Assembly: GCA_017501565.1 (NCBI GenBank)
Contig: JAFVWP010000135.1
Coordinates: forward strand, 1 to 37,479
DNA: 37,479 bases
Source: Elusimicrobiaceae bacterium
Lineage (GTDB): Bacteria; Elusimicrobiota; Elusimicrobia; Elusimicrobiales; Elusimicrobiaceae
Direction: 5' to 3'
Shown here: positions 719-21,245 of the stretch, in pieces
Numbering within the stretch: position 1 is the stretch's first letter
Layout: every line of letters starts with the position of its first letter
The notes under the pieces: model-generated
Database searches by the model: none
The model's input: only the letters and a program-made list of their open reading frames with translations
Told to the model about the DNA's origin: nothing
Translations under genes and position numbers: made by a program

Positions 719-1504
719 ATGGACGATTTTTTACAAGAAAAACCTAAGAAAAAAAAGGCGGCCGGGGCGGTGTTTCACGGCTACCGCCGATTGTTTGCAT
801 TGGTGTTTGCTATTGCGGTTTTGTGGCAGGCGGTCAGCTTTTTGCAATTGCAGCTGTCCTCTTACCATAAACAGCTGGTGAAGGAATTTAAAGTTGTTTT
901 GGCGGTAAAAGGTGTTTTGAATAATGCAGCCTTGAAAGAATTAGGCGAAAGCTTGAACCAAAAAGAAGATGTTTCTTCGGTAAAATTGTTTGCGCCGCAA
1001 GACGGCCTTGCCGTTTTGAAGAAAAAAAATCCGCGCTTGGCAGAGTCTTTGGTAGCGTTGGGGCATGAACAAATGCCGGCTTATTTTGAATTGACATTGG
1101 CGCATCAGGCGCTTAATAATGTCCGTTCTTTTGCGCAGAATTTATCGGCTGAATATCCACAACTTTCCGTCAAATATTCCGCTATTCAGGCGGAAATGGC
1201 CTTTTTAAGCGGATTGTGTGTGCGTATTTTGAATCTGGCACTTATTTTTGCTTTGGTTTTATTTTTTGCTTTTATGTTTATGGTAGAGGCTTATCCCATG
1301 CGGGGCAAAACTCACGTCGGCGGTGCGGTGGTATCTAGTTTGTTGGCGGGGGGATTGTCTTTTGTATTTTTCCTGGTATTGGCCTATCCTACGGGGTTTT
1401 TGGTGCCGGCTTTACAGCATTTTACGACGATAGAGCGGCAACTTTCTATTTTAATTTTTAGCGGACTTTTGGGTTGGACTTTAGGAAAATGGCAAAAATT
1501 CTAG
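719..1504 (+). CDS. ftsX: FtsX-like cell-division ABC transporter permease
   Basis: The 261-residue product has the FtsX layout: a short basic cytoplasmic N-terminus, TM1 at about 23-46, an extracytoplasmic domain at about 50-160, then three TM segments at about 165-190, 200-230 and 240-258. The extracytoplasmic domain has the family pattern (beta strand VVLAV, helix, EDVSSV strand, a helix with AVLKKKNP, then MPAYFELTL). FtsX works with the ATPase FtsE to activate peptidoglycan hydrolases through EnvC-like proteins, and the next gene is EnvC-like, which supports the call. No FtsE gene is adjacent. The start at 719 follows an AAGGAAAGG ribosome-binding site. The 3' end overlaps the next gene by 16 nt, implying translational coupling. 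Overall identity is weak, as usual for FtsX. Confidence 0.75.
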   Translation: MDDFLQEKPKKKKAAGAVFHGYRRLFALVFAIAVLWQAVSFLQLQLSSYHKQLVKEFKVVLAVKGVLNNAALKELGESLNQKEDVSSVKLFAPQDGLAVLKKKNPRLAESLVALGHEQMPAYFELTLAHQALNNVRSFAQNLSAEYPQLSVKYSAIQAEMAFLSGLCVRILNLALIFALVLFFAFMFMVEAYPMRGKTHVGGAVVSSLLAGGLSFVFFLVLAYPTGFLVPALQHFTTIERQLSILIFSGLLGWTLGKWQKF

Positions 1505-2685
1505 CATTTTGTTTGGTGTGTTTGTTTTCGTGTTCGGCTCTGTATGCACAGGCCGAATCGGAAGCGGCACGCAAACAGGAGCTGGAAAAATTAAAAAAAC
1601 AGACGGCGCAGAAACAAGCGGAATTAAAAAAATACCGCGACCAGGAAAAAGCCATTTCCAAGGAAGTTTCCGCTTTGCAAAACCGAAAAGCACAAGTAAT
1701 CCGTGAAAAAAATAAATTGGAGTCAGACATAGATTATGTGGAAAAAACCATTTTATCTACGGAAGACAAACGCGAAGCCTTAGAGCGCAGTATGCCTATG
1801 TGGCGCGGGGTATTGGCGGAAGAAATTGCCTATTATTATTTGACCGGAAATTGTGGGACTTGCCCGGGGGGCGTGTCTTTGGAAGAAGAAATTTTTGCCG
1901 AACGCGCTTTGATGCAAAAAGCAGCCTTTGCCGTAGCTTTGCAAGAAGAAAACCACGCCGCCAAGCAAAAAATATATGATTTTGAAAAAAGAAATAAAAA
2001 ATTAATGGCGCAAAGTTCGCAGATAGAGCAACGCGAAAAAGTCATTACGACCAATTTTTTAAAAAAACAACAGGATTTAAAATTAACCAAACGCAAAGCC
2101 GATGCCATTCGCAAAGAAATCAACGAATTGAACAAATCCGCCAAAGCGTTGGACGATTTGTTGGCCAAGTTTGAGCGCAAACGTAAAGAAGCGGCCAAAA
2201 AACAAGCCCAAGCCCAGAATAAGGCCAAAAAGGGTGCGGGCGCCAAAGAGACGACGTCTATTGCCAAAATTGATTTGCCGAAAAATTCTTTGCCGTGGCC
2301 GGTGCAAGGCAAGGTCATCAGCAAATTTGGCAAAGAATACCGCCAAGATTTAAATACATGGATTTTCCGCGATGGTATTAAAATTGCGGCCAAAGCCGGC
2401 GAAGACGTAAAAGTGGTGGCGGCAGGTGACGTGATTTATGCCGGGCCTTTCCGCTCTTACGGAAACGTCGTGATTGTGGACCATGGCAAAGGTTTCTTCA
2501 GTATTTACGGATTTTTAAGCGAAATTACCGCTGCTGTCGGTACAAAGCTGACGCAAGGCGCTCCTTTGGGTAAGGCGGGCTTAGATACACAACAAAAATC
2601 CGGCACCGGGCGTTATGCCGTTTATTTTGAAACGCGCCAAGGGGCTACCGCTGTTAACCCGATGAATTGGCTGCAAAAAATTTAA
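1489..2685 (+). CDS. envC: EnvC-like murein hydrolase activator, degenerate LytM/M23 domain
   Basis: The product of about 398 residues has a signal peptide (MAKILAFCLVCLFSCSALYAQ), a long Lys/Glu-rich coiled coil at about 25-255 and a C-terminal LytM (peptidase M23) fold at about 275-395. This is the EnvC arrangement, in which the protein activates periplasmic amidases at the septum under FtsEX control. The zinc ligands of active M23 enzymes are replaced: the first motif reads FRDGIKIA instead of H-x-G-x-D, the second has YGFLS where active enzymes have a His before LS, and the third reads VYFETR instead of LHFE. It is therefore probably an activator and not an enzyme. I chose ATG 1489 over the in-frame TTG at 1474 because it follows AGGAAA and begins the signal peptide directly. 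It overlaps the end of ftsX. Confidence 0.85.
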   Translation: MAKILAFCLVCLFSCSALYAQAESEAARKQELEKLKKQTAQKQAELKKYRDQEKAISKEVSALQNRKAQVIREKNKLESDIDYVEKTILSTEDKREALERSMPMWRGVLAEEIAYYYLTGNCGTCPGGVSLEEEIFAERALMQKAAFAVALQEENHAAKQKIYDFEKRNKKLMAQSSQIEQREKVITTNFLKKQQDLKLTKRKADAIRKEINELNKSAKALDDLLAKFERKRKEAAKKQAQAQNKAKKGAGAKETTSIAKIDLPKNSLPWPVQGKVISKFGKEYRQDLNTWIFRDGIKIAAKAGEDVKVVAAGDVIYAGPFRSYGNVVIVDHGKGFFSIYGFLSEITAAVGTKLTQGAPLGKAGLDTQQKSGTGRYAVYFETRQGATAVNPMNWLQKI

Positions 2686-2715
2686 TATTTTTGTGTTGGA
2701 TAAAGAGGGATATTT

Positions 2716-4062
2716 ATGAAGAAAAATAAATCAACGAAGATAGCCGCTTGGTTTGCGGTTATATTTTTTGTGGGCACTTTATTCCCGTATGCGTATGCCG
2801 CGGTAGATAATGGGCTGAAACAATTGCGCACATTGGTTACGGTGATAGAATATGTTAAAGAAAATTATGTAGAAACGACCGATACCGATAAATTGGTAGA
2901 AGGGGCTATTCGCGGCGTGGTGAATGAGTTGGACGATTTTTCGCAATATTTGGCCCCCAAAGAATACAAGGCTTTGCAAAATGATACACAGGGGCATTTT
3001 GGCGGATTGGGGATTCGTTTGGCTAAGGTGGACGGCTATGTAACCATTATGAGCCCCATGCCCAATACGCCGGCCTACCGGGCTATGGTGATGCCGGGCG
3101 ACCGGGTGCTATTTGTAGATGACCAAGATTTAAAAGGTATGGAATTGGACGAAGCGGTGGAATTGATGCGCGGTCCGGTGGGCAGTAAAGTAAAAGTAAC
3201 GCTGAGCCGCAAAGATGAGAAAACAGGTAAGTACAAGACTTTGCCCGATTTTAATTTCAAGCGCGAAAGAATTGTGCCGGAAGTGGTTTATTACAGAATG
3301 TTACCCGAAAAAGTGGGATACATTTATTTGGTGGATTTCTCAGGCCACAGCACCGAAGAAGTCAAAAAAGCATTGAAAGAATTAAACAAGCAGGGCATGA
3401 AATCTTTGATTTTGGATTTGCGTTTTAATCCGGGCGGCTTGTTAAACGGCGCAGCGGAAATTGCCAAGATTTTTATGGGCGATCATAAGATGATTGTATA
3501 TACCAAAGGCCGCAAACAAGAATATTATCAGGAATTAAAAACAGGGCTCAAGGCCGATTATCCGGACTTGCCTTTGCTGCTGTTGATTAACCAGGGCTCT
3601 GCCAGTGCCAGCGAAATTGTGGCGGGCGCTTTGCAAGATAATAACAGGGCCGTTGTGGTGGGCCAACGCAGCTTTGGCAAAGCCAGCGTACAACAGGTGA
3701 TGCCGTTGGAAGGCGGCGCCGGCTTGCGTTTAACCATTGCCAAATATTACACCCCTAATGGGCGTCTGATTCACCGCGATTACCGCGATAAATCCAAGGC
3801 AGACGAAGGCGGTATCGTGCCGGACGTAGAAGTAAAAGTAGAGCCGAAAGAGGAAGCCAAGGTATTTATGCAGTATAATAATGTAATATACACACCCGGT
3901 CAAGATGCGCCTAAAATGGAATTTACGGAAAAAGACCCGGTGTTGGATAAAGCTTTGGAAATTATCAAAGAAGGACCGGAAAAAATAATGGCTCAAAAAG
4001 CAGCAGCCCAAAAGAACGAAACACAGCAAACTGAAAGCGAAGGTCAAAAAAACGATAAATAA
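2716..4062 (+). CDS. ctpA: Carboxy-terminal processing protease (S41 family)
   Basis: The 448-residue product starts with a signal peptide or anchor at about 8-29, followed by the N-terminal S41 helical segment (YVKENYVETTDTDKL, DDFSQYLAP), a PDZ domain at about 90-170 with GLGIRL and MPGDRV, and the S41 protease core at about 195-355. The catalytic dyad is visible: Ser297 in GSASASEI and Lys322 in RSFGKASVQ, 25 residues apart as in characterised Ctp proteases. The last 60 residues are polar and Gln/Lys-rich. These periplasmic proteases trim C-termini and often control peptidoglycan hydrolases. The gene follows the envC-like gene by 30 nt, the common envC-ctp order, and is 2 nt from tsaD. Catalytic residues are intact. 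Confidence 0.93.
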   Translation: MKKNKSTKIAAWFAVIFFVGTLFPYAYAAVDNGLKQLRTLVTVIEYVKENYVETTDTDKLVEGAIRGVVNELDDFSQYLAPKEYKALQNDTQGHFGGLGIRLAKVDGYVTIMSPMPNTPAYRAMVMPGDRVLFVDDQDLKGMELDEAVELMRGPVGSKVKVTLSRKDEKTGKYKTLPDFNFKRERIVPEVVYYRMLPEKVGYIYLVDFSGHSTEEVKKALKELNKQGMKSLILDLRFNPGGLLNGAAEIAKIFMGDHKMIVYTKGRKQEYYQELKTGLKADYPDLPLLLLINQGSASASEIVAGALQDNNRAVVVGQRSFGKASVQQVMPLEGGAGLRLTIAKYYTPNGRLIHRDYRDKSKADEGGIVPDVEVKVEPKEEAKVFMQYNNVIYTPGQDAPKMEFTEKDPVLDKALEIIKEGPEKIMAQKAAAQKNETQQTESEGQKNDK

Positions 4063-4064
4063 GT

Positions 4065-5087
4065 ATGAAAAAAGATTTTACGATTTTAGGCATTGAAAGC
4101 ACTTGTGATGAAACTTCCGCCGCTTTGTTGGTGGGGGGGAAGAAATTGCTGAGCAATGTGGTCTATTCACAAATTGAAGAACATAAAAAATATCATGGGG
4201 TTGTGCCGGAGTTGGCCAGCCGTGCGCACGCGGCTAAAATTGCGGCTGTCATTGCACAGGCTTTGGACGGAAAACAGATTGATTGTGTGGCATTTGCCCA
4301 TGGGCCCGGTTTGCCGGGCGGGTTGATGGTAGGGCGTGTGGCGGCAGAGACCCTTGCAAATTTTACCAATACCCCTATAATAGGTATTAATCATTTGGAA
4401 GGGCATTTGTTCGCTTGCGAGTTTGAAGACGGCGAAGTGAAAAAGCCGTTATCGTTTCCTCTGGTGGCGTTGATTGTATCCGGCGGGCATACCGAGCTTT
4501 GGTATGTGAAAGGTTACGGCGATTATAAAGTATTAGGCCGCACGCGCGATGATGCCGCCGGGGAAGCTTTTGACAAAGTAGCCAAACTTTTGGGCTTGCC
4601 TTATCCGGGCGGGCCGCAAGTTTCGGCGCAGGCTTTAAAAGGGAAAAGAGATGCTATTGATTTTCCGCGCCCTTTACTGCCGGGAACGTGGGAATTTTCA
4701 TTTAGCGGGATTAAGACGTCGGTCAGTTATTATTTAAAAGACCACCCGAACGTGAACGTACCGGACGTGTGTGCCAGCTTTGAGCAGGCGGTTTGCGAAA
4801 CATTGGTGAAAAAGACGATGTTAGCCGCTGATAAATATAAAGTAAAACATATTGCCGTCGGCGGCGGAGTGGCTGCCAATACGCTCTTACGCGAACTGAT
4901 GAACCAAGCCGCGCAGAAACGCGGGATTACCACGCATTTTGTACCGCGGAATATGTCTTCGGACAATGCGGCCATGATTGCGCTGGCGGCTTGGAAAAAG
5001 TTAGAACACGCCGGGGAAAAAGCCTCGGAAAAAAAGTGGAATATTAATATCAACCCGAACTTAAAAGTAAAAAATTGGGGGAAATGA
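4065..5087 (+). CDS. tsaD: tRNA N6-threonylcarbamoyladenosine transferase TsaD
   Basis: TsaD transfers the threonylcarbamoyl group to A37 of ANN-decoding tRNAs together with TsaB and TsaE in the cytoplasm. The 340-residue length is normal. Signatures in order: GIESTCDETSAAL at the N-terminus (ASKHA nucleotide-binding fold), VPELASRAH, AFAHGPGLPGGLMVG, the metal-binding pair H110 and H114 in NHLEGH, VSGGHTEL, a phosphate loop around DDAAGEAFDKVAKLLGLPYPGG, the AVGGGVAAN loop and a late SSDNAAMIA motif. The start at 4065 lies 2 nt after the ctpA stop. No tsaB or tsaE is visible nearby. This is the most secure housekeeping call in the window. Confidence 0.97.
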   Translation: MKKDFTILGIESTCDETSAALLVGGKKLLSNVVYSQIEEHKKYHGVVPELASRAHAAKIAAVIAQALDGKQIDCVAFAHGPGLPGGLMVGRVAAETLANFTNTPIIGINHLEGHLFACEFEDGEVKKPLSFPLVALIVSGGHTELWYVKGYGDYKVLGRTRDDAAGEAFDKVAKLLGLPYPGGPQVSAQALKGKRDAIDFPRPLLPGTWEFSFSGIKTSVSYYLKDHPNVNVPDVCASFEQAVCETLVKKTMLAADKYKVKHIAVGGGVAANTLLRELMNQAAQKRGITTHFVPRNMSSDNAAMIALAAWKKLEHAGEKASEKKWNININPNLKVKNWGK

Positions 5088-5091
5088 TTAA

Positions 5092-6297
5092 ATGATTTTG
5101 TGGGTAATGCCGGATAGCGGCGCAAAGACCAAAGCCAATTATCAAAAGCTGGTGGAACGATTTCAAAAAGAGTATCCCAAAGCGCAAGTGCAAGTGCAAG
5201 TGTTGACGCGTAACGTTTTGTGGAAAAAAATCTTTATGATGCGCAATCCCGCCGCCGGGGAAACCATACCGGATTTATTGCAAATCCCGCATTATTGGAC
5301 GGCTTTGATGACCCGCGCCGGCGTGGCTGAAAATCTGTCTAAATTAGACCCCGGTCTTTCCCTTTCTTCTACGTTGTATCCGCTTCGTCCGCATTGTTAT
5401 AAACCGGGCACCAAAGATTTATATTCTTATCCCTGGTGGTTTGACATGAGTGCTTTGCACTATCGCGCCGACCACTTAAAATTTGTAACCAAAAATCCGC
5501 AAGAAGAGCTTTCCACTTGGCAAGGATTGTTGGACGTGTGCGAACGTTTAGCCGGGCATTTTAAAGATGTGGAAGGATACTACCCGATGCAAAACGGAGA
5601 TTGGCGCGGTTCTCTGTCCACCCGCAGTACGTTTATGGAAGTGTGGGGCCGCGGAGCGGATTTGTTTACCCCGGATTTGACGGATACGCTTATTCACACG
5701 GCGCCGTTTAAACAGGGCGTGAAAGATTATATTGAGTTAGCATTAAAAGAGTATATGCCCATTTTGCGCGAACGCGGCAGTTTGGGTACGATGTTGACCG
5801 GTAAAGCAAGTATGTTGCTTTCCCGCAAGCAAGGCATCAGCAGTTTTGAAGGGCGCGGCGGTGCCCGCGTAAAAACCTTGCCGGTCCCCCGCACCGGCGA
5901 TCAACCCCAGGCTTATCTTTCAGGTATGAACTTGGTGATTAATGCCGCCGGAAAAGACAAAGAAACCGCCTTGGAATTTATCAAATGGAGCGCAAGGGCA
6001 GATAATCAGGTGCTTTATGCCACGATGATGGACGTGTTCCCCGCGTTTGAAGACAGCTTTGAGCAATTTATTTTTTCTTCTTCGCAACGCTTGCAAACCT
6101 ATTCCGGCATTTTGGCTTCGGCCCGCACCTTACCCAATATTACCATTACGGGGACCGTGATTGAAATTTTAAATAAAATTTTCGCCGTCAGTGCCACCCA
6201 AATTGTGGAAGGGCGTTTTACGCAAGCAAGCTTGGATATAGAGCTAGACAGAGCCGCTAAAGAAGTGCAATATTTGCTCTCGCTCTACGAGGGATAA
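5092..6297 (+). CDS. Extracellular solute-binding protein family 1 fold, but without a signal peptide
   Basis: The 401-residue product looks like a family 1 (sugar-type) ABC solute-binding protein: a first strand ILWVMP, then the helix NYQKLVERFQKEYP, strand VQVQVQVL, PDLLQIPHYW, a hinge region near YSYPWWFDMSALHYRAD, and a late helix EFIKWSARADNQ. The protein starts directly at the first strand, and an in-frame TAA lies immediately before ATG 5092, so no secretion signal can be added upstream. It should therefore be cytoplasmic, unlike normal binding proteins. No permease or ATPase gene is adjacent. The next gene, a GAF-GAF-GGDEF protein, begins 3 nt after the stop, suggesting a joint sensory role (inference). 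The ligand is unknown; aromatic residues in the cleft (PHYW, PWWF) would suit a carbohydrate. Confidence 0.75.
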   Translation: MILWVMPDSGAKTKANYQKLVERFQKEYPKAQVQVQVLTRNVLWKKIFMMRNPAAGETIPDLLQIPHYWTALMTRAGVAENLSKLDPGLSLSSTLYPLRPHCYKPGTKDLYSYPWWFDMSALHYRADHLKFVTKNPQEELSTWQGLLDVCERLAGHFKDVEGYYPMQNGDWRGSLSTRSTFMEVWGRGADLFTPDLTDTLIHTAPFKQGVKDYIELALKEYMPILRERGSLGTMLTGKASMLLSRKQGISSFEGRGGARVKTLPVPRTGDQPQAYLSGMNLVINAAGKDKETALEFIKWSARADNQVLYATMMDVFPAFEDSFEQFIFSSSQRLQTYSGILASARTLPNITITGTVIEILNKIFAVSATQIVEGRFTQASLDIELDRAAKEVQYLLSLYEG

Positions 6298-6300
6298 TAT

Positions 6301-7800
6301 ATGTTTGATAAAGAAGCGTTTACCCTTTTTAAATTTTCTAAAAAATTAAACCAATCTTTCCAAAACCGGCGCGAGCTTTTGGATTGTGCTTTGCCGGCCT
6401 TGCGGGATTTGTTTAAATTGGACCGCGTGTATTTTTTCAATTGGCAGCAGGAGCGCGCACTTCTTTCTTTGAATATGATGTGCAAGAAAGAATATTGTAT
6501 GGATATGCAAGAAGATATATCCGTCTTGAGCGAGCCGGACTTTTTGAAAACTTTATTGCGTGACGGCATTGCCGATTCTACGGACTTAAACTATCCCGCC
6601 GTTTATGTGCTTTTACGTTGGAAAAAACCCAATATGATTTTGGAAGGGGACGAAGTGCGCCACGTGATGAAAAACAGCGTGGGGGTGTTGCGCTTAGAAC
6701 GTTTCCGCAAAAACCGCTTGTTTACGGAAGCGGAAAAGAAAATGATTAAGCGCGTGGCGGAGGAAATCTCTCACAATTTGACCAATACCGAAGTGGACCA
6801 GGCCAAAAACCAACGCTTAAATATTTCTACTGCTTTGAATGATTTGGCCACCATTTTTGCTTCTTCCTTGCGCTTGACGGACGGCTTGGAGCTGATTTTG
6901 AAAGGAGTGCAAAAATATTTCCGCTTTGACCGCGTGCGCCTGTATCAGACCAATTACGACGGCACCAAAATTAAAAGTATTTTAGGTATTGACATTTCCG
7001 GTCAAGTAGCCCGCCAAACCGGTGAAGATTTGCCCGAAGACGAGCGCAGCTTGCTAAAAGAAATTTTTAACAGCGGGGCCACCTATCGTACCATCAATAA
7101 TGTGGTCTATATTCCGTTAAAAGTACAGCGCAATAAAGTGGGTTTTTTAACGTTTGACAATTTACTTTCTCGGCGACGTATTGATTATTTGGACTTTGTT
7201 TCTTTGAAACAATTTTCCAGCCAGATTGCTTTGGCCATAGATAATGCTTCTTTGTTTGAGCGCGTACAGGAATTGTCCAATTACGATGAGCTGACCAAAC
7301 TGCCGGTACGCCGTTTCTTCAGCGAAAAGTTTGCCGAAGAAATTTATCGTTCCAAACGTTTTGATTTGATTTTGTCTATCATTGTGCTGGATATTGACTT
7401 GTTTAAACAAATCAATGATACCTACGGGCACCAAATCGGGGATTGGGCCTTGAAAGAAGTCAGCCGCGTGATCCGCACCAGCTTGCGCCAGACGGATTTC
7501 CCTTGCCGGTACGGGGGGGACGAAATGGTGATTATGTTGCCCCGCACCAATGACGAAGAAGCCAAAATTATTGCCAAACGCTTAAAAGAGCGCATTAATG
7601 ATATTGCCATTCCCAGCCGTTATACCGACGGAGAACGCATTACCTTGAGCATCAGCCAGGGCATTGCTTCCTTTCCGCAAGACGGCGCTAATGCAACGGA
7701 ATTGTTTGAAAAGGCTGATAAAGCTTTGTATTGGGTTAAAGACGGCCGCCGCGGTACTTTTGCCGTTTATCGCGAAGTGGCGGAAGAAGTAGAGCCGTAG
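6301..7800 (+). CDS. GAF-GAF-GGDEF diguanylate cyclase
   Basis: The 499-residue product has no signal peptide or TM segment. Two GAF-like sensory domains occupy about 15-165 and 175-325; each ends with strands typical of GAF (GVLRLERF, VGFLTFDNLL). A GGDEF domain follows at about 335-495. The active-site motif is GGDEM at residues 405-409, with Met for the usual Phe; the metal-binding Asp is retained in VLDIDLFKQINDTYGH. The product-inhibition I-site RQTD lies exactly five residues before the motif. It probably makes cyclic di-GMP from two GTP and is subject to feedback inhibition. It is likely translated with the upstream binding-protein gene. Cyclic di-GMP commonly controls adhesion and pili, which fits the large surface protein and Tad locus downstream (inference). 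Confidence 0.92.
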   Translation: MFDKEAFTLFKFSKKLNQSFQNRRELLDCALPALRDLFKLDRVYFFNWQQERALLSLNMMCKKEYCMDMQEDISVLSEPDFLKTLLRDGIADSTDLNYPAVYVLLRWKKPNMILEGDEVRHVMKNSVGVLRLERFRKNRLFTEAEKKMIKRVAEEISHNLTNTEVDQAKNQRLNISTALNDLATIFASSLRLTDGLELILKGVQKYFRFDRVRLYQTNYDGTKIKSILGIDISGQVARQTGEDLPEDERSLLKEIFNSGATYRTINNVVYIPLKVQRNKVGFLTFDNLLSRRRIDYLDFVSLKQFSSQIALAIDNASLFERVQELSNYDELTKLPVRRFFSEKFAEEIYRSKRFDLILSIIVLDIDLFKQINDTYGHQIGDWALKEVSRVIRTSLRQTDFPCRYGGDEMVIMLPRTNDEEAKIIAKRLKERINDIAIPSRYTDGERITLSISQGIASFPQDGANATELFEKADKALYWVKDGRRGTFAVYREVAEEVEP

Positions 7801-8030: not shown

Positions 8031-11000
8031 ATGACATTTCATCAAATCTTCAAAGTGATCATTGGCAAAGCGGCCCTGGGGGCAGTTTTGCCGTTGTTGT
8101 GTTTGGCGGCTCAGCCCGTCTTTGCCCAATCTGCCGAAGTGCGCTCCATGGGTGTGTATTACGTGGACGGCTCTACGAACATCAATGATGTTTATTGTAA
8201 CTGGGATTTAGCCTCCAAAACCGATACGCAAATTGCCAATGCTTATAAAGGTGGAATCGTCAACGTTGGCGATAAAGAAACGTTAGATCCTTGGCAAACG
8301 TCGGCTTTGATTGAATATGATCAACCTTACCCCGATCCGAAATCTGCCAACAATTACCCGAACCACTGCTTGGGAATGTGTATGGACGTGTATTGTACCA
8401 ACAAGCCCAACGGCGCGGCTACCTATTCTATCTCGTTCCCGATTCAAAATATCCGCTTTGAAATCGCCAAATACTATGGCTCTAAGGATATTAATAATCC
8501 CGACACCGCTCCCGCTGTGCGCACAATTGACATGAGCGTGATGAAAAATAAAATTTATATTGATGGGGCAGCTGTCACTGAAAATGTAGATTTGTCCAAC
8601 TATATGTGCGCGGCCTATTCCTGTTGGGGGTCTGCTTCCCAATTTGTGAATACCCAATCTTGCCCCAACCCGCAATATGAATGTGTATCGAGAGCTTCTT
8701 TGATAAAAAGTGGGTATGATGAAGCAGATCTTTGTAAGGAATTAACTGTTAATCCTGGAAATCTTGATATGTGGGATGCTGAATGGTGGGGACAGATTGT
8801 AGAGCGAATTGATACCGACGCCGACCAAGGCTATTGTTGCCGCCGTTTAGCTGACTCTGAAGGGCAATATAATATTACTCCAAGTGTTTATACTGCATCT
8901 GCGATGTCAAATTCCAAGTTGAAAGGCCAATTAGACGGAAAAAATATTGGAACCGATGGTGCAAAAGAAAATGAAGATTGGGTCTATTGCGGATTTTCCA
9001 CTTCTTGTAAAGAAGACGGCACCAGCGACGATTGTGCCAACGGCCGCGAAAGCTTGTGTATTATCCGCGCTGAAGGCACCGGTAAAGGCTATAATGACCC
9101 CATTCGTTTCTGCGCTCCGTGGGACGGCTCATACGAAATTTTAGGTGAATTTGGCAAAACTAACGGCCAATACGGTGTACGCGGTACCGTGCATACGGAC
9201 TACCCCGGCGACGGCATTGCCGTAGAACAAATCACCATTGACCAAACCTTTACTTATCCGGGCAATAACCAATATCCTATTCAGGTTGACGTAACCAACG
9301 TACATACCGTACGCAGTACGCCCAGTGTGGTGGGCGGTATGGAAGCCGTAGCCGCTTTGCCGTATAATATCCGCTATCGCTTGAGTAAAGATGCGGATGT
9401 CAAAATGCAAATTTTTGACGCTTCTGCCGTCGTACCGACTACTAACCAAGGCGACACCAATATCAGCGATAATGATGCCGAATTGGTCTTGACCCAAGAT
9501 AATGTCGTACGCACTTTGGTGGATTGGAAACCGCGCTTAGGCGAAGGCATCAAAGGCTCCGAAAGCGACAAGCTTATCACCGAAAGCGAAGATTGGGACG
9601 GACGCGATGATTCCGGCCGCTTATTGCCCGCCAACAACTATTTGGTTTCTATTCAAGCCAAGAGCCAAGACGAATGGCCGGGGACCGACTTCTCCCGCGC
9701 TGTAACACGTCAGATTTCTGTGGACCCGTTGAAATTGACGGATATTCAAGTGGAAGGATTGAATAAGCGCTCTACCGCTTATGCTACCATTCACTATGTT
9801 CCTACGGAAAACTCCAATGTTTACTTTAATGTCTATTCCCCGGGAACAACCTTTGAAAGTTTAGATACGCTTGGCTCTGCCCCCACCGGTACGGCTCCGA
9901 CTATTACTAATAATAGCGGCAGCTTGATTTACCAAAGCCAACAACAGCGTTCCCGCGGCTTGAGCTACCCTGATAAATGGGACGGCTTGTGCCACAATGC
10001 AGACGGCTGTGCTATTCCGTATGCCAAAGGGACCAAGTTGCCCTTCTCCGGAGACGTTTTTGACGGAACCGCTGCTTCTTGTACGGCAGGGGAAGGCACC
10101 TTAAGCGGAAACAATTGTGTGGTAACTTATGCCAACGGCGCTCCGTTGCCGGACGGCGATTATGTATATGTATTGTGGGCGGAAATTCCGTACACCGATA
10201 CATACACCAATGCCGCCGGAAAGGTTTACACCGGTGTAAAAACTTTGAAATATAAAATGGGCTTGATCTCTGTGGAACGCGGGTTGGTGGATATTACCAT
10301 TCAGCCGGTCAGCTATTCCACCATCGGCTCCAGCCCGACGGCTTACGGCTTAGATCCTTTCATCTTTAAATATTCTATTGCCCGTGAAGCCAATGTAAAC
10401 GCTTATGTAAAGAACACTGCCGGTGTCATCGTGAAGACTTTGACCGACGAAGGCGGCAATACCAACGTAGCCCAACAAATGAATACTTTGTCTTGGGACG
10501 GACGTGATAATGCCGGACGTATGGTGGGCCCCGGTACCTACATGTTTGTAGTGGAAACCAGAGACCCGATGTTCCCCTTAAGCGTACAAACGCAAGCGAG
10601 CGCTATCTTCCCGGTGGACTTGTACCGCGTGGTGGACGTTACCACTACCGACGTTTACGGCGATAGCGAAGCCCGTGCCACCATCAACTACTATTTATCT
10701 AAGGCGATGAACGTCCAAATTGATGTGTATAATAAGGACGTTGTCATTCCCGCCCAAAATCAAACCGGCACGACCACTACCCAAAATATTACCACCATTC
10801 CGGCTCAGGTAACGGCGGTGGCGGAACTTGCGAACTTGACCGCCTTAAATACGGCTACTACCGGAACCAATACGGCCGGAAATGCCGTGGGCTATAAATA
10901 TGTATATACCCAACCGACGTTAACCGGTGATACTTACAGCTACTACCGCGTGACCAAAAACGTAACTGCTGTGAACGAGACCAACAATACCGAAACCTAT

Positions 11001-12905
11001 CAGGTAACGGAAATCTTGCTCTACAACGTAAAAGTAGTGGCTTGGCCGCCGCGCATCTGCGATAAACAAAGCGATGCTGCTGTATTTACCAACGGCTATG
11101 TTGACCCGGCTAAAAATCCGTCTTGTATTTATGTAAACGATACCACGTTTACCAACTACCCGGCCAATGCGCAAGCGGCTAAATACAACTATACCGAAGG
11201 GGCCCAACAAACCTTAGACGTTCGTTTGCAACCGATCAAAACCTTCAACCGCTCTGCCACCAAAGCCGGAGACGGCGTAAAGATTACCGAAGAATGGGAC
11301 GCGCAATACTTCTACAACCCGACCCCGGTCAGCGTATTGGACGGCGGTAAGAACAGCGTAGAAGCGGTCAACGAGTGTGCCAATCAAACGGATTTGACCC
11401 AATGTCCTTATGAAATGGTACCGGACGGCACCTATCCGTTCTACATTTCTGCTAAAACGGAAGAACCTGTCAACCTGTACTATGACAAACAAACGGCTGT
11501 GCCGAATACGGATGGTGCTGTTGCGCAAACCGGCCTGTATGCTACGGAAAAACCGGTCTACCGCTTAAACGTAACCCGCGGCCCCGTGTATTTCTTGGAC
11601 GGCTCTGTGGCGGTGTACCCCAATGCGCCGCAGTTGTTCAATACTTCTTCCGGCCCGGTTTTTGTACCGCCGTATGAAATCAACTTTGCCATCAGCCGCG
11701 CGGCTACCGTGCAAGTGGCAGTGGTAGCGTTGGAAGACGGCTTATGCACCACGCAAGGCACCACCATGGCTAACGGCACAAACGTATATAGTGCCAAAGC
11801 AGGTGATGTCTGCAAATACTTAAGCACGATGACCATTGTCAATACGCCGAACTTTGACCCTAATATCATTCGCAAAATCTATTGGGACGGCACTGACAAT
11901 AACGGCAAATACGTCCGCAACGGCAATTATGAAGTGCGCTTAACCGCGATTAACTACCCCGATGCCGGATTGTACCAGCCGACCATCAAACAGCTGACTT
12001 TGAACGTAGATTTGTTGAAAGTGTTTGACTTGCCGGAAACGGAATCTTATGCCATCAACGTACGCGGTACGGATATGAAAGTGTCTTACCAAATCTCTGT
12101 ACCGATGAAAGTGGCCATTCAAATCTTCAAACCGGGTACCACCATTTATGACTATCAAAAGGGTACCTTGCGCGATCCGGCCACCGGAAAAGAAGTGCAA
12201 GATATACGTGATGTGTTGGTGAAAACCATTGTCGGTATCCGCCCGTCCACGACCTTGATTGAAGAATTGTGGGACGGCACCGACTATGCCCAACAAGACG
12301 TACCGGACGGCACCTATCCGTTCCGCTTCGTCACGGCGTTGAACACCGCCGATATAGACACCATTACCGGGGAAATTATCCCGGGCGATGATAAGTCCGC
12401 TACCCCTGCGGATTGGAAAATCCAACGGGTGGCCGATACCTATCAATATGTCAACCTGCATAATGCCACGGTGGCTATCGGTGACGGACAATTTGTGTGC
12501 GAAGATTGGGAAAAGACCGTATTCTTCTATCCCAATCCGTTCAAGACCCCGACCGGTACCTTGGAAGTTACCAAACTCCCGGTACCCGGAAAAATGAGCA
12601 TTAAGCTTTATAACTTAGCCGGGGACTTGGTCAGAGAAAAAGGCTTTACCTGTGTAGATGCTAATAATATGAGCGTTGTTATGAACGGCTCCTTAGATTT
12701 GCGCCCCGACAACAGCGTCAGCAACAATGTTTACACCGGCAACATGCCCTCTGTACGCAACGCAGCTTTGAGATGCTTCTGGGATAGAACCAACGACCAT
12801 GGCAAAAAAGTAGCCCGTGGCGTGTACTTTGGATTGGTAGATTTCAGAGCGCAAAACGGCAGACAACACTGCCAAAAGGTCGTAAAAATCTTGATTCCCA
12901 GATAA
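8031..12905 (+). CDS. Giant secreted protein with FlgD-like Ig repeats and a type IX-like C-terminal domain
   Basis: The 1624-residue product has a signal peptide at about 1-33 (ends PVFAQ). The N-terminal region, about 40-370, is Cys-rich (for example CLGMCMDVYC and SYCCRR-type clusters), suggesting disulfides. About seven FlgD-like Ig modules follow, recognised by a W-D-G-x-D-x-x-G core and a later G-x-Y strand, with Trp at residues 522, 650, 822, 1089, 1285, 1414 and 1584. A Thr/Asn-rich linker lies near 900-955. The C-terminus has YPNPF at about 1500, then a YNLAGDLV strand and ARGVYFGLVDF, ending KVVKILIPR, which resembles the C-terminal domains of type IX secretion substrates. The next gene is PorV-like, which supports surface export. 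The likely role is adhesin or surface-layer component, but no enzymatic domain is visible. Start ATG 8031 precedes the signal peptide directly. Confidence 0.85.
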   Translation: MTFHQIFKVIIGKAALGAVLPLLCLAAQPVFAQSAEVRSMGVYYVDGSTNINDVYCNWDLASKTDTQIANAYKGGIVNVGDKETLDPWQTSALIEYDQPYPDPKSANNYPNHCLGMCMDVYCTNKPNGAATYSISFPIQNIRFEIAKYYGSKDINNPDTAPAVRTIDMSVMKNKIYIDGAAVTENVDLSNYMCAAYSCWGSASQFVNTQSCPNPQYECVSRASLIKSGYDEADLCKELTVNPGNLDMWDAEWWGQIVERIDTDADQGYCCRRLADSEGQYNITPSVYTASAMSNSKLKGQLDGKNIGTDGAKENEDWVYCGFSTSCKEDGTSDDCANGRESLCIIRAEGTGKGYNDPIRFCAPWDGSYEILGEFGKTNGQYGVRGTVHTDYPGDGIAVEQITIDQTFTYPGNNQYPIQVDVTNVHTVRSTPSVVGGMEAVAALPYNIRYRLSKDADVKMQIFDASAVVPTTNQGDTNISDNDAELVLTQDNVVRTLVDWKPRLGEGIKGSESDKLITESEDWDGRDDSGRLLPANNYLVSIQAKSQDEWPGTDFSRAVTRQISVDPLKLTDIQVEGLNKRSTAYATIHYVPTENSNVYFNVYSPGTTFESLDTLGSAPTGTAPTITNNSGSLIYQSQQQRSRGLSYPDKWDGLCHNADGCAIPYAKGTKLPFSGDVFDGTAASCTAGEGTLSGNNCVVTYANGAPLPDGDYVYVLWAEIPYTDTYTNAAGKVYTGVKTLKYKMGLISVERGLVDITIQPVSYSTIGSSPTAYGLDPFIFKYSIAREANVNAYVKNTAGVIVKTLTDEGGNTNVAQQMNTLSWDGRDNAGRMVGPGTYMFVVETRDPMFPLSVQTQASAIFPVDLYRVVDVTTTDVYGDSEARATINYYLSKAMNVQIDVYNKDVVIPAQNQTGTTTTQNITTIPAQVTAVAELANLTALNTATTGTNTAGNAVGYKYVYTQPTLTGDTYSYYRVTKNVTAVNETNNTETYQVTEILLYNVKVVAWPPRICDKQSDAAVFTNGYVDPAKNPSCIYVNDTTFTNYPANAQAAKYNYTEGAQQTLDVRLQPIKTFNRSATKAGDGVKITEEWDAQYFYNPTPVSVLDGGKNSVEAVNECANQTDLTQCPYEMVPDGTYPFYISAKTEEPVNLYYDKQTAVPNTDGAVAQTGLYATEKPVYRLNVTRGPVYFLDGSVAVYPNAPQLFNTSSGPVFVPPYEINFAISRAATVQVAVVALEDGLCTTQGTTMANGTNVYSAKAGDVCKYLSTMTIVNTPNFDPNIIRKIYWDGTDNNGKYVRNGNYEVRLTAINYPDAGLYQPTIKQLTLNVDLLKVFDLPETESYAINVRGTDMKVSYQISVPMKVAIQIFKPGTTIYDYQKGTLRDPATGKEVQDIRDVLVKTIVGIRPSTTLIEELWDGTDYAQQDVPDGTYPFRFVTALNTADIDTITGEIIPGDDKSATPADWKIQRVADTYQYVNLHNATVAIGDGQFVCEDWEKTVFFYPNPFKTPTGTLEVTKLPVPGKMSIKLYNLAGDLVREKGFTCVDANNMSVVMNGSLDLRPDNSVSNNVYTGNMPSVRNAALRCFWDRTNDHGKKVARGVYFGLVDFRAQNGRQHCQKVVKILIPR

Positions 12906-12916
12906 ATAGGTAATTT

Positions 12917-13885
12917 ATGAACATCAAATATAGAGTTTTAATAGCTTGTTTAGCCTTGGCTTTGGCGGCTCCTGCCGCCATGGCCTCCACCAATGCCGAT
13001 GCCGGTACCAGCGCCAGCGCATTCTTGAAAATTGACGCCGGTTCCCCGCGTGCCCAAGCATTGGGTAATGCCTACGTATCCGTAGCTGACGGCCCGGAAG
13101 CCTTGTTCTGGAACCCTGCCGGTGCCGCTTCTGCCACCACGCGTGAGATTGAATTTTCCTACTTGGACTATTTGCAAGGTTACAAAGCCCGCACATTGGC
13201 CTACTTGCAACCGATGGGAAAAACCATTATCGGGGTGACGTTCAATTATATGGATATGGACGGCTTTGATTATCGTGACTCTTATGGTCATCAACAACCG
13301 GTAGTAGATAAGCCGGTGCAGAACTTTGTGGGCAGTTTGTCTTTGGCCCGCGGGTTCTTCAACCAAGGTTTACAAATCGGTGCTACGGCTAAATATATCA
13401 ATGAAAAATTGGACACCTATCGCTATACCAACGTAGGTTTTGACGTAGGTGCCAAAGCGCGCCCTTGGCAATGGTTGGGTTTGGGCGGTGCTATTGTAAA
13501 CATCGGTGATAAAGAAGAAATGCCGCGCGGTTGGCGCGTCGGCGGTGATATTAACACCAAATATTGGACCTTGTCCACCGAATATATGAAATATGTAGAT
13601 GACGACGGACGTTTTGGCGTCGGTTTGGAAGTCCATATTCCGGAAGACATCTTGCAAGTGGCCCAATTTGATTTACGTGTGGGTTGGTATGACCGCGAAA
13701 GCACCGGTTACAGCGAGAGCGAAAACTTGAAGAGCTTAGGCTTAGATGCCACTTCCAAAGTATCCTTCGGTTTTGGTATTTACAGCTCTGAATTGTTCGG
13801 TTATGGTGCCAGCATTGACTATGCTGTTACGCCGTTTGGGGCGTTGGGTACTTCCCAACAGATTGCCGTATCGGTACAATTTTAG
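12917..13885 (+). CDS. PorV/PorQ-family outer-membrane beta-barrel protein
   Basis: The 322-residue product has a signal peptide at about 1-23 (ends AAMAS). It then shows the PorV/UPF0164 signature: Gly-Ser-Pro-Arg-Ala-x-Ala-Leu-Gly-Asn-Ala-Tyr, followed by DGPEALFWNPAG. The rest alternates short amphipathic strands and turns as in FadL-like barrels and ends in an aromatic residue (AVSVQF), the typical outer-membrane barrel terminus. In Bacteroidota, PorV is the outer-membrane shuttle of the type IX system and binds C-terminal signals of cargo. Here the gene lies 11 nt after a gene whose product ends in a type IX-like domain, so a cargo-carrier relationship is a reasonable inference. No other type IX component is in the window. 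A Tad pilin gene follows 31 nt later. Confidence 0.85.
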   Translation: MNIKYRVLIACLALALAAPAAMASTNADAGTSASAFLKIDAGSPRAQALGNAYVSVADGPEALFWNPAGAASATTREIEFSYLDYLQGYKARTLAYLQPMGKTIIGVTFNYMDMDGFDYRDSYGHQQPVVDKPVQNFVGSLSLARGFFNQGLQIGATAKYINEKLDTYRYTNVGFDVGAKARPWQWLGLGGAIVNIGDKEEMPRGWRVGGDINTKYWTLSTEYMKYVDDDGRFGVGLEVHIPEDILQVAQFDLRVGWYDRESTGYSESENLKSLGLDATSKVSFGFGIYSSELFGYGASIDYAVTPFGALGTSQQIAVSVQF

Positions 13886-13916
13886 TTATTACAGGGCTTT
13901 AAAGTCCGGGACGTAT

Positions 13917-14105
13917 ATGAGAAAAGAGTCTAAAGTTTATAAGCTCTTAAAAGACCGCAAAGGTCAAACGGCTGTGGAATATATTATCACGGCGTTTATG
14001 TTATTCGGTGCTTTTTTGGCTTTCTATGCTTTATACTCAAACTTGGTTCCCCAGCAGTTTGACCAAGGAGCCAAACTCATTTTGACGGAATACAATGCAA
14101 ATTAG
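13917..14105 (+). CDS. flp: Flp/Fap-type pilin, first copy
   Basis: The 62-residue product has a basic leader (MRKESKVYKLLKDRK), a prepilin processing site after Gly (KG then QTAVEY), the Glu and Tyr at mature positions 5 and 6 typical of Flp pilins, and a hydrophobic helix IITAFMLFGAFLAFYALY. I chose ATG 13917 because the longer frame from 13746 runs inside the porV-like gene and lacks pilin features. Flp pilins are cleaved by a TadV/CpaA peptidase and polymerised by the Tad machine. The C-terminus is longer and more polar than the second copy, so it may be a minor or modified pilin. It sits between porV and the second flp gene. Confidence 0.88.
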   Translation: MRKESKVYKLLKDRKGQTAVEYIITAFMLFGAFLAFYALYSNLVPQQFDQGAKLILTEYNAN

Positions 14106-14128
14106 TTTTTAAAAATTAGGAGGAGTCT

Positions 14129-14356
14129 ATGAAGTTTATTATTGCAATGCAAACCAAATTAAACGCCATGAAAGATGTGGCTTTTAATTGCGTAAGAAAA
14201 AAAGAAGGCCAAAACACCATTGAATACATCATCATGTTGGGTGTAGTAGTAGGTATCGCCTTGTTAGTGGGCGGTTTGGTAAAGAGCATGATGCCTGAAG
14301 TATTCGAAAACGTAAAAGCCAAAATCATTGGCGGTGTAAACAGCACTGCTGAATAA
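14129..14356 (+). CDS. flp: Flp/Fap-type pilin, second copy (probable major pilin)
   Basis: The 75-residue product has a basic leader, a Gly processing site (RKKEG then QNTIEY), the conserved Glu-Tyr, a hydrophobic helix IIMLGVVVGIALLVGGLV and a short amphipathic tail. The ribosome-binding site AGGAGG just upstream is the strongest in the pilin group, which suits a highly made major subunit (inference). The leader of about 26 residues is longer than usual for Flp pilins. It lies 23 nt after the first flp and 20 nt before the tadE gene. Confidence 0.9.
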   Translation: MKFIIAMQTKLNAMKDVAFNCVRKKEGQNTIEYIIMLGVVVGIALLVGGLVKSMMPEVFENVKAKIIGGVNSTAE

Positions 14357-14376
14357 TAGGCCGGAGTTTTGCCGAC

Positions 14377-14865
14377 ATGAAAATCTTTCGTAGGGAGCGT
14401 GACGGGCAGATAACGGTAGAATTGATGCTTATTTTACCGGTATTGATGTTGATGGTGTTCTTTATCTTGGAATACGGCAACATCGCCTATCACACAATTA
14501 TAGCCAATCACGCTTCCTATGAATTTGCCCGAATCGGAGCTTTAGTAGCCGCTACCAAACCCAGCGGAAATTCTAACTCTTCCCGGGCCAAAAACAAAAT
14601 TAATGCCGCTAAGACAAAAGTTTTTGGGGCAGATGCAGGAAGAATTACCGTAGGTGTAAAAATAGAGTCCACCGGACGCGACCCGATGTATTCCCGTCAT
14701 CATCACGACGATGTGGTGGTAACGGTCATTTACCCGGTACGTTTGGTGTTCCCGGGGACGAGCTGGCTCTTGGCCAGTGACCCCAAAAGTGAAGGTATGC
14801 GTAAAATCAAAGCAGTAACCCGTATGCCGGTAGAAAAGATTTACGCAAGTTCGGACCCGAAATAA
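14377..14865 (+). CDS. tadE: TadE-family pseudopilin
   Basis: The 162-residue product has a short basic leader, a prepilin-type site (RDG then QITVEL) with Glu at mature position 5, a hydrophobic helix MLILPVLMLMVFFILEYGN, and a polar extracytoplasmic domain with AFARIGA-type helix and late beta strands. TadE proteins are minor pseudopilins needed for Flp pilus assembly, processed by the same peptidase as Flp. The helix followed by an invariant-looking Glu-Tyr-Gly segment is characteristic. It directly follows the two Flp genes. A second TadE-like gene lies at 30137. Family confidence is high. Confidence 0.88.
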   Translation: MKIFRRERDGQITVELMLILPVLMLMVFFILEYGNIAYHTIIANHASYEFARIGALVAATKPSGNSNSSRAKNKINAAKTKVFGADAGRITVGVKIESTGRDPMYSRHHHDDVVVTVIYPVRLVFPGTSWLLASDPKSEGMRKIKAVTRMPVEKIYASSDPK

Positions 14866-14925
14866 GTGGCCGATACAAATCAAAATTTGCTTTAATTAAA
14901 CTTGGATTTACATTAAGGAGAGATG

Positions 14926-15678
14926 ATGAAAAAAGGAATACTTCTGCCCGTTGTATTTGCTCTGTTGGCAGCGGCGGTATATATGTGGTTGCTCAACGGG
15001 GAACAAAAAAAGATTAAAGATTCCAAAACTACCAAAATGGTTTTGGTGGCCGATCGTGATATTAAAGAACGCGACGTCATTAAACGCGAGTATTTAAAAC
15101 GTGTTGCCATTCCGGCCGCTTATATCCAAAAAGATGCTTTTATTTGGAATTCTGAATCTGATTTTGCCAAAGTGGACAATGCCATTGCCCGCGTACAGAT
15201 TCCTAAAGGAAACCAACTCTCCAAATATGCGATTACATCTCTTTCTCCTGAAGCGGGTTTGTCCAGCAAAATCCCGGTGGATATGAGAGGTTTTATCATT
15301 ACGGTAGACTCCAACGTGGCCAGCATGGTAAAACCCGATGATAACGTAGACGTTTTGCTTACTTTTGAAGCAAATATGAAAAGCGGCGCCCGCCAAAAAG
15401 TAACGGTGACCCTGTTACAAAACGTAAAAGTATTGGGCGTAGGCTCCAACTTGGGACAAGGCTTAGATGCCAAGGCGGCTGCTGCTATGAGAAACGAAGA
15501 AGAAAATGCCTCTGCCTATACCGACACCAGCGCCTTGAGTTTGGCTTTATCTACGCGTGATGCGCAGTATTTGGCTTTGGCCAAAGAAGAAGGCACCTTA
15601 ACCGTAACCTTGCGTTCTCCGGGTGATTTGACGCGGTTTATGATGGACATTGCAACATTTGAAAAATTATTCCAATAA
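14926..15678 (+). CDS. cpaB: CpaB/RcpC Flp pilus assembly protein
   Basis: The product of about 250 residues has an N-terminal TM anchor (ILLPVVFALLAAAVYMWLL) and an SAF domain at about 38-105 (MVLVADRDIKERDVIKREYL, then VQIPKGNQLSKYAI), followed by the RcpC-type domain with GFIITVD, VKPDDNVDVLLTF and VTVTLLQNVKVLGVG, and late ALSTRDAQYLALAKEEGTLTV. CpaB works in the periplasm next to the secretin in Tad pilus biogenesis. Two ATGs occur in tandem at 14923 and 14926. The AAGGAG at 14915-14920 is better spaced for the second, so I chose 14926. It is 15 nt upstream of the secretin gene. Confidence 0.9.
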   Translation: MKKGILLPVVFALLAAAVYMWLLNGEQKKIKDSKTTKMVLVADRDIKERDVIKREYLKRVAIPAAYIQKDAFIWNSESDFAKVDNAIARVQIPKGNQLSKYAITSLSPEAGLSSKIPVDMRGFIITVDSNVASMVKPDDNVDVLLTFEANMKSGARQKVTVTLLQNVKVLGVGSNLGQGLDAKAAAAMRNEEENASAYTDTSALSLALSTRDAQYLALAKEEGTLTVTLRSPGDLTRFMMDIATFEKLFQ

Positions 15679-15693
15679 AGGAACGTAAAAAAT

Positions 15694-16428
15694 ATGAAAT
15701 CTACTGCAAAAATAACTTTATTCGTTTTATTGCTGGCTTTGGCGTGCCCTGCCGCCTTTGCCAAAAAGACGCGCCTGGTGGCCGTCAGTGCCGATGTGGT
15801 GGAAATCGGCGGTACTTTGACCTCTGCCAAGGGGTTTGAGTGGAACCAGATTTTTGACTTTGAAGAAGCCAATATCCCCGGTATTTTATCCTTGGGTGAG
15901 TTTGAACGTAAAACCGCCGTGGTAACCCGCTTGCGCTTGTCTGAAACGGAAGGCCGCGCACAGGTGCTTTCCAACCCGAAGATTGTTACCAGCTCCGGTA
16001 ATGCGGCTAAAATTACGGTAGGCGGTAAAGTACCTATACCGGTGGTGAATAACCAAGGCGTCGGCTCTCAATTGGAAGAATATGGTATTTTGCTTAACGT
16101 TTTGCCTACGATTATTCCGGAAAGAGGCAATATTATTGACTTGCAAGTACAGCTTTCCGTTTCTACGGTGGACTATTCCCGCACGGTATCCGTGGGTACG
16201 GCGACGGCTCCGTCTTTTACCAACCGCGATGTGGAAACCCACGTAGAATTAAACAGCGGTGAAACGTTGGTAATCGGCGGTTTAAAAAGCAGCTATCGCA
16301 ACGTCAGCGAAAACCGCGTTCCTTTCTTGGGCAAATTGCCTTTGATCGGTCTGTTGTTTAAATATAAAGATATTACGGAAGAACAACGCTCTCTCTTCTT
16401 ATTTATTACGGTTGAAGTGGTGGAATAA
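15694..16428 (+). CDS. cpaC: Short CpaC/RcpA-like secretin
   Basis: The 244-residue product has a signal peptide at about 1-22 (ACPAAFA) and the secretin core: VLSNPKIVTSSGNAAKITVGGKVPIPV, GILLNVLPTI, an internal V-E-T-H-V-E-L-N-S-G-E-T strand, VIGGLKS and VPFLGKLPLIGLLF near the end. Secretins form the outer-membrane channel for the pilus. Typical CpaC/RcpA proteins are 400 residues or more, with N-terminal BON or N0/N1 domains; here only about 60 residues precede the secretin core. No frameshift or upstream remnant is visible, so the gene appears naturally short. It sits between cpaB and the ATPase gene. Confidence 0.88.
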   Translation: MKSTAKITLFVLLLALACPAAFAKKTRLVAVSADVVEIGGTLTSAKGFEWNQIFDFEEANIPGILSLGEFERKTAVVTRLRLSETEGRAQVLSNPKIVTSSGNAAKITVGGKVPIPVVNNQGVGSQLEEYGILLNVLPTIIPERGNIIDLQVQLSVSTVDYSRTVSVGTATAPSFTNRDVETHVELNSGETLVIGGLKSSYRNVSENRVPFLGKLPLIGLLFKYKDITEEQRSLFLFITVEVVE

Positions 16429-16437
16429 CGAACTCTT

Positions 16438-18699: not shown

Positions 18700-18722
18700 G
18701 CGTTGTGTTTTAAGGAATGGAT

Positions 18723-20351: not shown

Positions 20352-20354
20352 TTT

Positions 20355-21245
20355 ATGAACCAAATGATAGGCGAACTTGTATTGGCTTTTTGCTTGTTTA
20401 TCGGCGGCATCAGTGTCTTTGTGGCAGTGCTTCATTTGTTTATGCCTAAAAAAGACGAAAACCGCATTGTGGACGTAGCGGCCCAACGTTTCAAGTCTTC
20501 TTCCAGCTTTGCCCGCTTACAACCGGAAACCAAATGGGTGGACCGCTTGGCCGTTTTCTGCTTAAATACGTTTAATTTAGAAAAACCTTTAGAATCTATG
20601 CACATGCAGTTGGGTAGCCCGCAAGAGCCCCAACCGGTGGATATTCTGTATTATAAAGTTATTTTTGCTTTGGTAATCCCGGCCGGCTTGATGTTGATTA
20701 CCCAATCTGTCTTTTGGATTATTACCTTGCCTTTCGGTTTTATTTTGCCGGACCTTGTATTTAAGAGCCGTATTCAAAAAAGACAAGGTGAAATTATGGG
20801 CAATTTCTCCGCAACGGTGGACTTGGCCGCGTTGATTATTGAGTCCGGGTTGGACTATTTAACGGCTTTTGAAAGAATTATCAGCATTGCCAAGCATAAA
20901 ACGATTTTGGAAGAAGAATTAGAAAAAATGCTCAATGAAATCAAATTGGGTTATTCCCGCCGCGAGGCGTTGGAACGCTTTGCCAATCGCACCGGAGTAC
21001 AAGAAGTGCGCTCTTTGGTGGGGTTGATTATCCAATCTGATGAATTGGGTACAAGTTTGGTGGACTTGTTGCGCAATTTCTCTACCGATTTGCGCAGCCG
21101 CCGTATGAGCAAGGCCGAAAAGCTGGCCGCACAGGCATCTACCAAAATGTTGTTTCCTTTGTTTATATTTATTTTCCCGACAATTTTCATTCTCATATTG
21201 TCGCCGATGATCAAAGGGCTGCTTTCGCAGGGGCTCAGTTTTTAG
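20355..21245 (+). CDS. tadC: TadC-like pilus platform protein
   Basis: The 296-residue product has TM segments at about 5-28, 97-135 and 270-292 and a T2SSF domain between about 145 and 265 with GNFSATVDLAALIIESGLDYLTAFERI and VGLIIQSDELGTSLVDLLRNFS. This is the TadC pattern and length. It pairs with TadB in the inner-membrane assembly platform that couples the TadA ATPase to the growing pilus. The gene begins 3 nt after tadB, implying translational coupling. All expected features are present. Confidence 0.92.
   Translation: MNQMIGELVLAFCLFIGGISVFVAVLHLFMPKKDENRIVDVAAQRFKSSSSFARLQPETKWVDRLAVFCLNTFNLEKPLESMHMQLGSPQEPQPVDILYYKVIFALVIPAGLMLITQSVFWIITLPFGFILPDLVFKSRIQKRQGEIMGNFSATVDLAALIIESGLDYLTAFERIISIAKHKTILEEELEKMLNEIKLGYSRREALERFANRTGVQEVRSLVGLIIQSDELGTSLVDLLRNFSTDLRSRRMSKAEKLAAQASTKMLFPLFIFIFPTIFILILSPMIKGLLSQGLSF

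Follow-up and report, generated by a model that had tools for sequence, protein, structure and literature searches.

Solute-binding proteins (SBPs) are generally taken to act outside the cytoplasmic membrane, and the periplasmic binding protein (PBP) fold is also reused in the cytosol, as the sugar sensor of LacI/GalR-type repressors. In the NspS-MbaA system of Vibrio cholerae and Sinorhizobium meliloti, as set out in the sections of the source consulted, the gene for an ATP-binding cassette (ABC)-type SBP precedes or overlaps that for a cyclic di-GMP (c-di-GMP) enzyme, and the SBP is the sensor (PMC9993111). RmcA and CdgH, in the consulted parts of their descriptions, use a PBP-clan fold as input to GGDEF/EAL enzymes (PMC8846402, PMC5431781). 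The corresponding parts of a review of c-di-GMP sensing place PBP-clan domains in the periplasm and name SBP_bac_3 as the only family of the clan studied in these networks (PMC8846402). Here, we analyze a 37,479-nucleotide stretch of DNA from an Elusimicrobiaceae bacterium (assembly GCA_017501565.1, contig JAFVWP010000135.1, positions 1 to 37,479 of the forward strand; hereafter the window), in which the gene for an SBP without an export signal (5092-6297, + strand) is followed directly by the gene for a diguanylate cyclase (DGC; 6301-7800, + strand). On balance, we favor reading this SBP as a cytosolic subunit that regulates the cyclase encoded downstream.

The window pair shares with NspS-MbaA an SBP gene immediately upstream of a c-di-GMP enzyme gene. 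However, NspS is described in the sections consulted as periplasmic and PotD-like, whereas the window SBP is predicted to be cytosolic and is of the SBP_bac_1/8 sugar type. MbaA, in the same sections, combines a periplasmic domain and two transmembrane regions with GGDEF and EAL domains, whereas the window DGC is GAF-GAF-GGDEF with no membrane segment and no EAL. Given that the periplasmic SBP and the membrane-spanning GGDEF-EAL partner are both lacking, the pair is not a member of that system; by analogy it is most likely its all-cytoplasmic counterpart. RmcA and CdgH resemble the proposed role of the SBP, but in the parts of the sources consulted their PBP domains lie within the enzyme chain and face the periplasm, whereas the window input would be a separate cytosolic protein. 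The likeness to LacI/GalR-type repressors is general knowledge, with a passing remark in the portion of PMC8846402 consulted; these repressors carry a fused DNA-binding domain, belong to another binding-protein type and act on transcription, whereas the output of the window pair would be through a cyclase. Searches of the open-access literature for the arrangement or its parts turned up no cytosolic SBP that partners a cyclase, in line with the preliminary description of this DNA, which knew of no described system of this kind. The papers retrieved for Elusimicrobiota with c-di-GMP or diguanylate cyclase dealt, judged by titles, with other subjects.

Results

The open reading frame (ORF) at 5092-6297 encodes 401 amino acids (aa) with Pfam matches to SBP_bac_8 (E 7.1e-18) and SBP_bac_1 (E 1e-12), and passes the family-1 SBP profiles (SBP_bac_1/SBP_bac_8) at 65.8 bits against a cut-off of 27 and 49.1 against 26. 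Its first core strand is formed by residues 2-6 (ILWVM), and an in-frame TAA (5089-5091) immediately precedes the ATG, so that no N-terminal extension is possible; because residue 2 already lies in the core strand, no signal peptide can be encoded. Neither an export signal nor a lipobox was found in the ORF start, in the first strand or by comparison with relatives. This bears out the claim, made from the window alone, of a signal-less SBP beginning at its first strand. A Shine-Dalgarno-like GGGGGA (5077-5082, + strand) precedes the start codon.

The DGC gene starts 3 nucleotides (nt; TAT) after the SBP stop codon, as first reported, with a Shine-Dalgarno-like GAGGGA (6289-6294, + strand), presumably used by the DGC gene, within the last SBP codons. 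Translational coupling is plausible from this spacing and from ATGA-type overlaps in relatives of the class. The 499-aa product has a GGDEF domain (7279-7752; PF00990, E 1e-43) carrying the catalytic signature GGDEM (7513-7527), the I-site RQTD (RxxD, product inhibition; 7486-7497) and an intact active-site motif, DIDLFKQIND for DxDxFKxxND; with its cyclase motifs complete, the enzyme is intact as judged from its sequence. The I-site is kept in 120 of 121 DGC sequences and GG[DE]E in 113 of the 114 aligned. Pfam detects only the second GAF domain in the window (6886-7245; GAF/GAF_3, E 5.6e-06 for GAF_3), and the first in DGCs of relatives (residues 23-144 at locus L100, 22-119 at L115), in agreement with the GAF-GAF-GGDEF architecture proposed at the outset. 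The highest 19-residue hydropathy is 1.33, hence no transmembrane helix; a more hydrophobic stretch in cyclases of family f2 aligns with a GAF core strand. With neither a signal in the SBP nor a transmembrane segment in the DGC, the two proteins share a compartment by sequence. The paired cyclase of one genome (G274; L103:6498-9416) runs to about 970 aa, of which some 480 lie past the GGDEF domain and have no Pfam match at 1e-3.

Conservation was assessed in a phylum sample of 294 Elusimicrobiota genomes at a match threshold of 1e-8, with all genome searches confined to this phylum, and loci were examined for 110 of the roughly 150 matching genomes. Among the source genome and its relatives, an SBP homologue is present in 59 of 61 genomes and a DGC in 58; both genes are found in all 43 genomes that are at least 90% complete. 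Both are missing only from G006 (78% complete) and G025 (72% complete), and the contig of G014, which lacks a DGC match, stops 148 nt after the SBP. In the phylum sample the SBP is matched in 148 of 294 genomes and, within Elusimicrobiales, in 121 of 125, the four misses being genomes of 78-81% completeness.

The signal-less set comprises 103 SBP loci from 102 genomes, and in 99 of them the DGC is the next gene on the same strand (95 called by script and four, L072, L073, L107 and L113, by hand, where the alignment began inside the cyclase ORF abutting the SBP). The other four (L056, L122, L130, L137) lie at contig ends, and linkage thus held wherever it was testable. No DGC follows any of nine signal-peptide SBPs, seven of which have more than 2.6 kb of room. 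The SBP ATG stands at the first strand throughout the fetched f1 and f2 loci and in almost every member of the signal-less group, and the longest possible N-terminal extensions in the signal-less group are mostly 0-4 residues. The two doubts that the preliminary description had attached to its own proposal, a signal peptide encoded upstream in homologues and a pair not kept in relatives, have therefore not materialized. In five close pairs the ratio of nonsynonymous to synonymous substitution (dN/dS) of the SBP is about 0.01-0.05 (for L037-L039, dN 0.023 and dS 0.50), which indicates purifying selection on the gene. The recurrence of both the start position and the pairing throughout an order, and outside it, puts the observation beyond chance.

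Upstream, tsaD (4065-5087, + strand; Pfam TsaD, E 3e-81) ends 4 nt before the SBP ATG. It neighbors the SBP in 92 of 103 signal-less loci, and the order tsaD-SBP-DGC is kept in the tsaD-linked branch; the pair occurs without tsaD in families f3, f6, f19 and f27. The longer order of FtsX-like, M23 peptidase, S41 peptidase, tsaD, SBP and DGC genes (window 719-7800) is shared by the order as a whole and by part of its class, and the pair is therefore carried by a cell-envelope cluster.

In a maximum-likelihood tree of 37 SBPs (midpoint root, outgroups from this phylum only), 24 signal-less and 13 signal-peptide sequences are split by a branch with support 99/97. Given that all signal-less sequences fall on one side of it, a single loss of the export signal, early in Elusimicrobiota, is the simplest reading. 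The tsaD-linked sequences (f1, f2, f8, f10, f13, f14) form one branch (support 100/97), outside which the f3 and f6 pairs have other neighbors. The deepest relatives, L113 and L115 from another class, carry in a row a lipoprotein-like SBP, two permeases, the signal-less SBP and the DGC, and a pair that closes an ABC sugar-transporter operon fits repurposing. The initial statement that no transporter is adjacent is thus correct for the window and within the order, whereas it fails at these two loci. In their class the signal-less SBP profile matches 13 of 95 genomes at 1e-15, and two genomes (G147, G086) carry the signal-less pair; six further loci (L152, L153, L154, L155, L157, L163) have signal-like N-termini and no GGDEF gene in the stretches covered. 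The transporter SBP of the L113 and L115 operons is distant in the tree, and its being the direct parent of the signal-less SBP is unsupported. Among signal-peptide SBPs, two are joined to an ABC permease domain in one chain of about 750-790 aa (L112:2093-4474, L117:3688-5940; SBP_bac_1 and BPD_transp_1 by Pfam), with proteins of similar length at L110, L114, L119 and L120.

Against solved chains, the signal-less SBP profile matches best, over nearly full length, CbpB of Clostridium thermocellum (7x0i, E 1.1e-74) and beta-GlyBP of Thermus thermophilus (7c63, E 1.8e-74), its closest solved homologues and binders of cellodextrin and beta-glucoside, respectively. Both are ABC-transporter SBPs, whereas the window SBP has neither an export signal nor the CbpB pair of stacking tryptophans. 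In the consulted part of the CbpB paper, W90 and W296 stack on glucose units +2 and +3 of cellodextrin (PMC9601137); placed on the 7x0i chain by a single inferred offset of 48, which fits both numbers, they correspond to R40 (5209-5211, + strand) and Q247 (5830-5832, + strand) of the window SBP. Both tryptophans are kept in f6, f19 and f27 (keepers include L105, L108, L109, L113 and L115), and in f3 the first is kept in both sequences and the second in one, with a gap in the other. Neither position holds a tryptophan in any of the 94 sequences of the tsaD-linked families. The first is arginine in all 58 of f1, arginine in 24 and lysine in 4 of 28 in f2, and proline and other residues in f8, f10, f13 and f14; the second is mainly glutamine in f1, with one gap in f8. 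With neither stacking tryptophan left anywhere in the tsaD-linked branch, a change of ligand probably accompanied the move of the pair to its place behind tsaD, and the arginine fixed at the first position suggests an anionic ligand.

The assembly of the source genome comprises 141 contigs at 91.8% completeness, and statements of uniqueness refer to it. No ABC transporter gene was found among the 28 window genes (part of the window ORFs) run against Pfam. The genome has a single copy of this SBP at E values up to 1e-3, and its two PF00528 matches are one neighboring pair beside two ATPases, read as Opp/Dpp permeases; a sugar-type permease pair for the SBP was thus not found in this 91.8% of the genome. 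With one family member and only an Opp/Dpp-like permease pair, an ordinary transport role in this genome was rejected. Across 25 genomes of the genus, PF00528 has one to three matches each.

Of four GGDEF matches in the source genome, the paired DGC alone has the canonical signature. The other three (L147, L148, L149) look degenerate at this signature; two are GGDEF-EAL proteins of Cache-like build and one is a REC-like protein with GGDDF, where Cache and REC are labels read from the sequence without a library match; L149, whose EAL also seems degenerate, may be a receptor or inactive. There are two EAL domains, one apparently intact, and one PilZ domain with RxxxR and DxSxxG, identified by eye and presumed to be the PilZ motifs. 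The paired DGC is hence apparently the one canonical cyclase that this small gut genome encodes. The signature check covers the source genome only, and because f2 genomes have two to eight GGDEF matches each, the point is not extended to f2.

Downstream of the DGC, the window (8031-22001) encodes a 1624-aa protein with FlgD_ig/CHU_C matches and then a Tad/Flp pilus locus with TadE, CpaB, a secretin, an ATPase with a ParA/MinD-like N-terminus, two T2SSF proteins and TPR proteins.

Discussion

The preliminary description had suggested an SBP repurposed as a cytoplasmic ligand sensor. The loss of the signal, the linkage and the relatives within ABC operons agree with the repurposing; ligand binding and control of the cyclase enter as steps of a proposed mechanism. 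An ancestral cellodextrin/beta-glucoside-type binding protein would have shed its export signal in a single event early in the history of Elusimicrobiota and remained in the cytoplasm, opening and closing on an intracellular solute. By touching the GAF region of the soluble DGC, it would alter c-di-GMP output. In the deepest branches it would probably read the sugar brought in by its own ABC operon. In the Elusimicrobiales branch, where the pair would have relocated behind tsaD and lost both stacking tryptophans, the SBP probably responds to another cytosolic compound, perhaps an anionic one.

Several points weigh against a regulatory subunit. The GAF domains of the DGC alone could do the sensing, and the loss of both stacking tryptophans could mean lost ligand binding. 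As the whole ftsX-M23-S41-tsaD-SBP-DGC order is conserved, linkage to the DGC is not unique to the SBP. In a distance-correlation (mirror-tree) analysis, the SBP-DGC partial r across 49 loci of all lineages is 0.69, the highest of 15 gene pairs, but it falls to 0.34 within f1 (29 loci, third of 15) and to -0.12 within f2 (19 loci, 13th of 15); a correlation that is high across lineages and low within families gives no support for co-evolution or contact. AlphaFold2 likewise gave no evidence of contact, with a mean predicted local distance difference test score (pLDDT) of 44.8 for the SBP with 20 aligned sequences, and a pLDDT of 51.4 and a predicted template modeling score of 0.30 for an SBP-DGC chain through the stop codon with 24. 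Presumably the input sequences were too alike (67-85% identical in the SBP), and these models were weighed neither for nor against contact.

A first alternative, which we regard as unlikely, is a pseudo-receptor: an SBP fold that has lost small-molecule binding and acts instead as a constitutive partner of the cyclase, or as its scaffold or localizer. It would explain why neither CbpB stacking tryptophan survives in the tsaD-linked branch, and within the genus the SBP evolves fastest of three proteins compared, with a mean distance of 0.356 compared with 0.234 for TsaD and 0.262 for the DGC (the window sequence counted twice). However, other tryptophans and prolines are invariant (W4, W44, W69 and P114 in 100 of 100 sequences, W115 and W185 in 95), and the replacing residue is itself fixed in f1 and nearly so in f2, pointing to a changed rather than an absent specificity.

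Quite improbable, in our estimate, is that the SBP has a cytosolic role of its own, such as sugar buffering, and is merely co-transcribed with tsaD and the DGC. Its place within a long conserved cluster of unrelated genes and the weak co-evolution signal within families are what this would predict, but the pair survives a change of neighbors in the four families without tsaD, and a DGC never stands beside the signal-peptide relatives.

Export of the SBP, through an unrecognized start or a non-classical route, is very doubtful. The closest solved relatives are exported SBPs, but the in-frame stop abuts the ATG and the start position is common to the order. Upstream of the core, a hydropathy above 1.9 over 11 residues is seen in all nine signal-peptide SBPs, compared with one (L072) of 14 signal-less loci with room for an extension of at least 11 residues. 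On these grounds, a start-site error was rejected. A single chain made by read-through can be dismissed: the window genes do lie in one frame with only TAA-TAT (6295-6300) between them, as in several but not most relatives, yet in many close relatives the gap is 2 nt or 4 nt and the frame differs, and this variation rules against a fusion.

Taken as a regulatory subunit, a free-standing SBP kept inside the cell, with a soluble cyclase as its partner, would give c-di-GMP signaling a new receptor layout. A fuller reading, offered tentatively, is that the SBP moved inside once, early, and was made into a detachable receptor serving a soluble cyclase. In the host-associated Elusimicrobiaceae this cyclase would be the only canonical DGC of a minimal network with one PilZ receptor; the SBP would read a cytosolic compound other than cellodextrin, probably a charged one, with a possible tie to envelope growth via the ftsX-M23-S41-tsaD cluster. 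Because deep forms with a transporter operon and an intact pocket exist beside derived forms with a new place and an altered pocket, how compartment and ligand changed can be put to the test. With the pair near-universal in the order and its DGC the apparent sole canonical cyclase of the source genome, the whole c-di-GMP output of such cells might depend on one cytosolic ligand.
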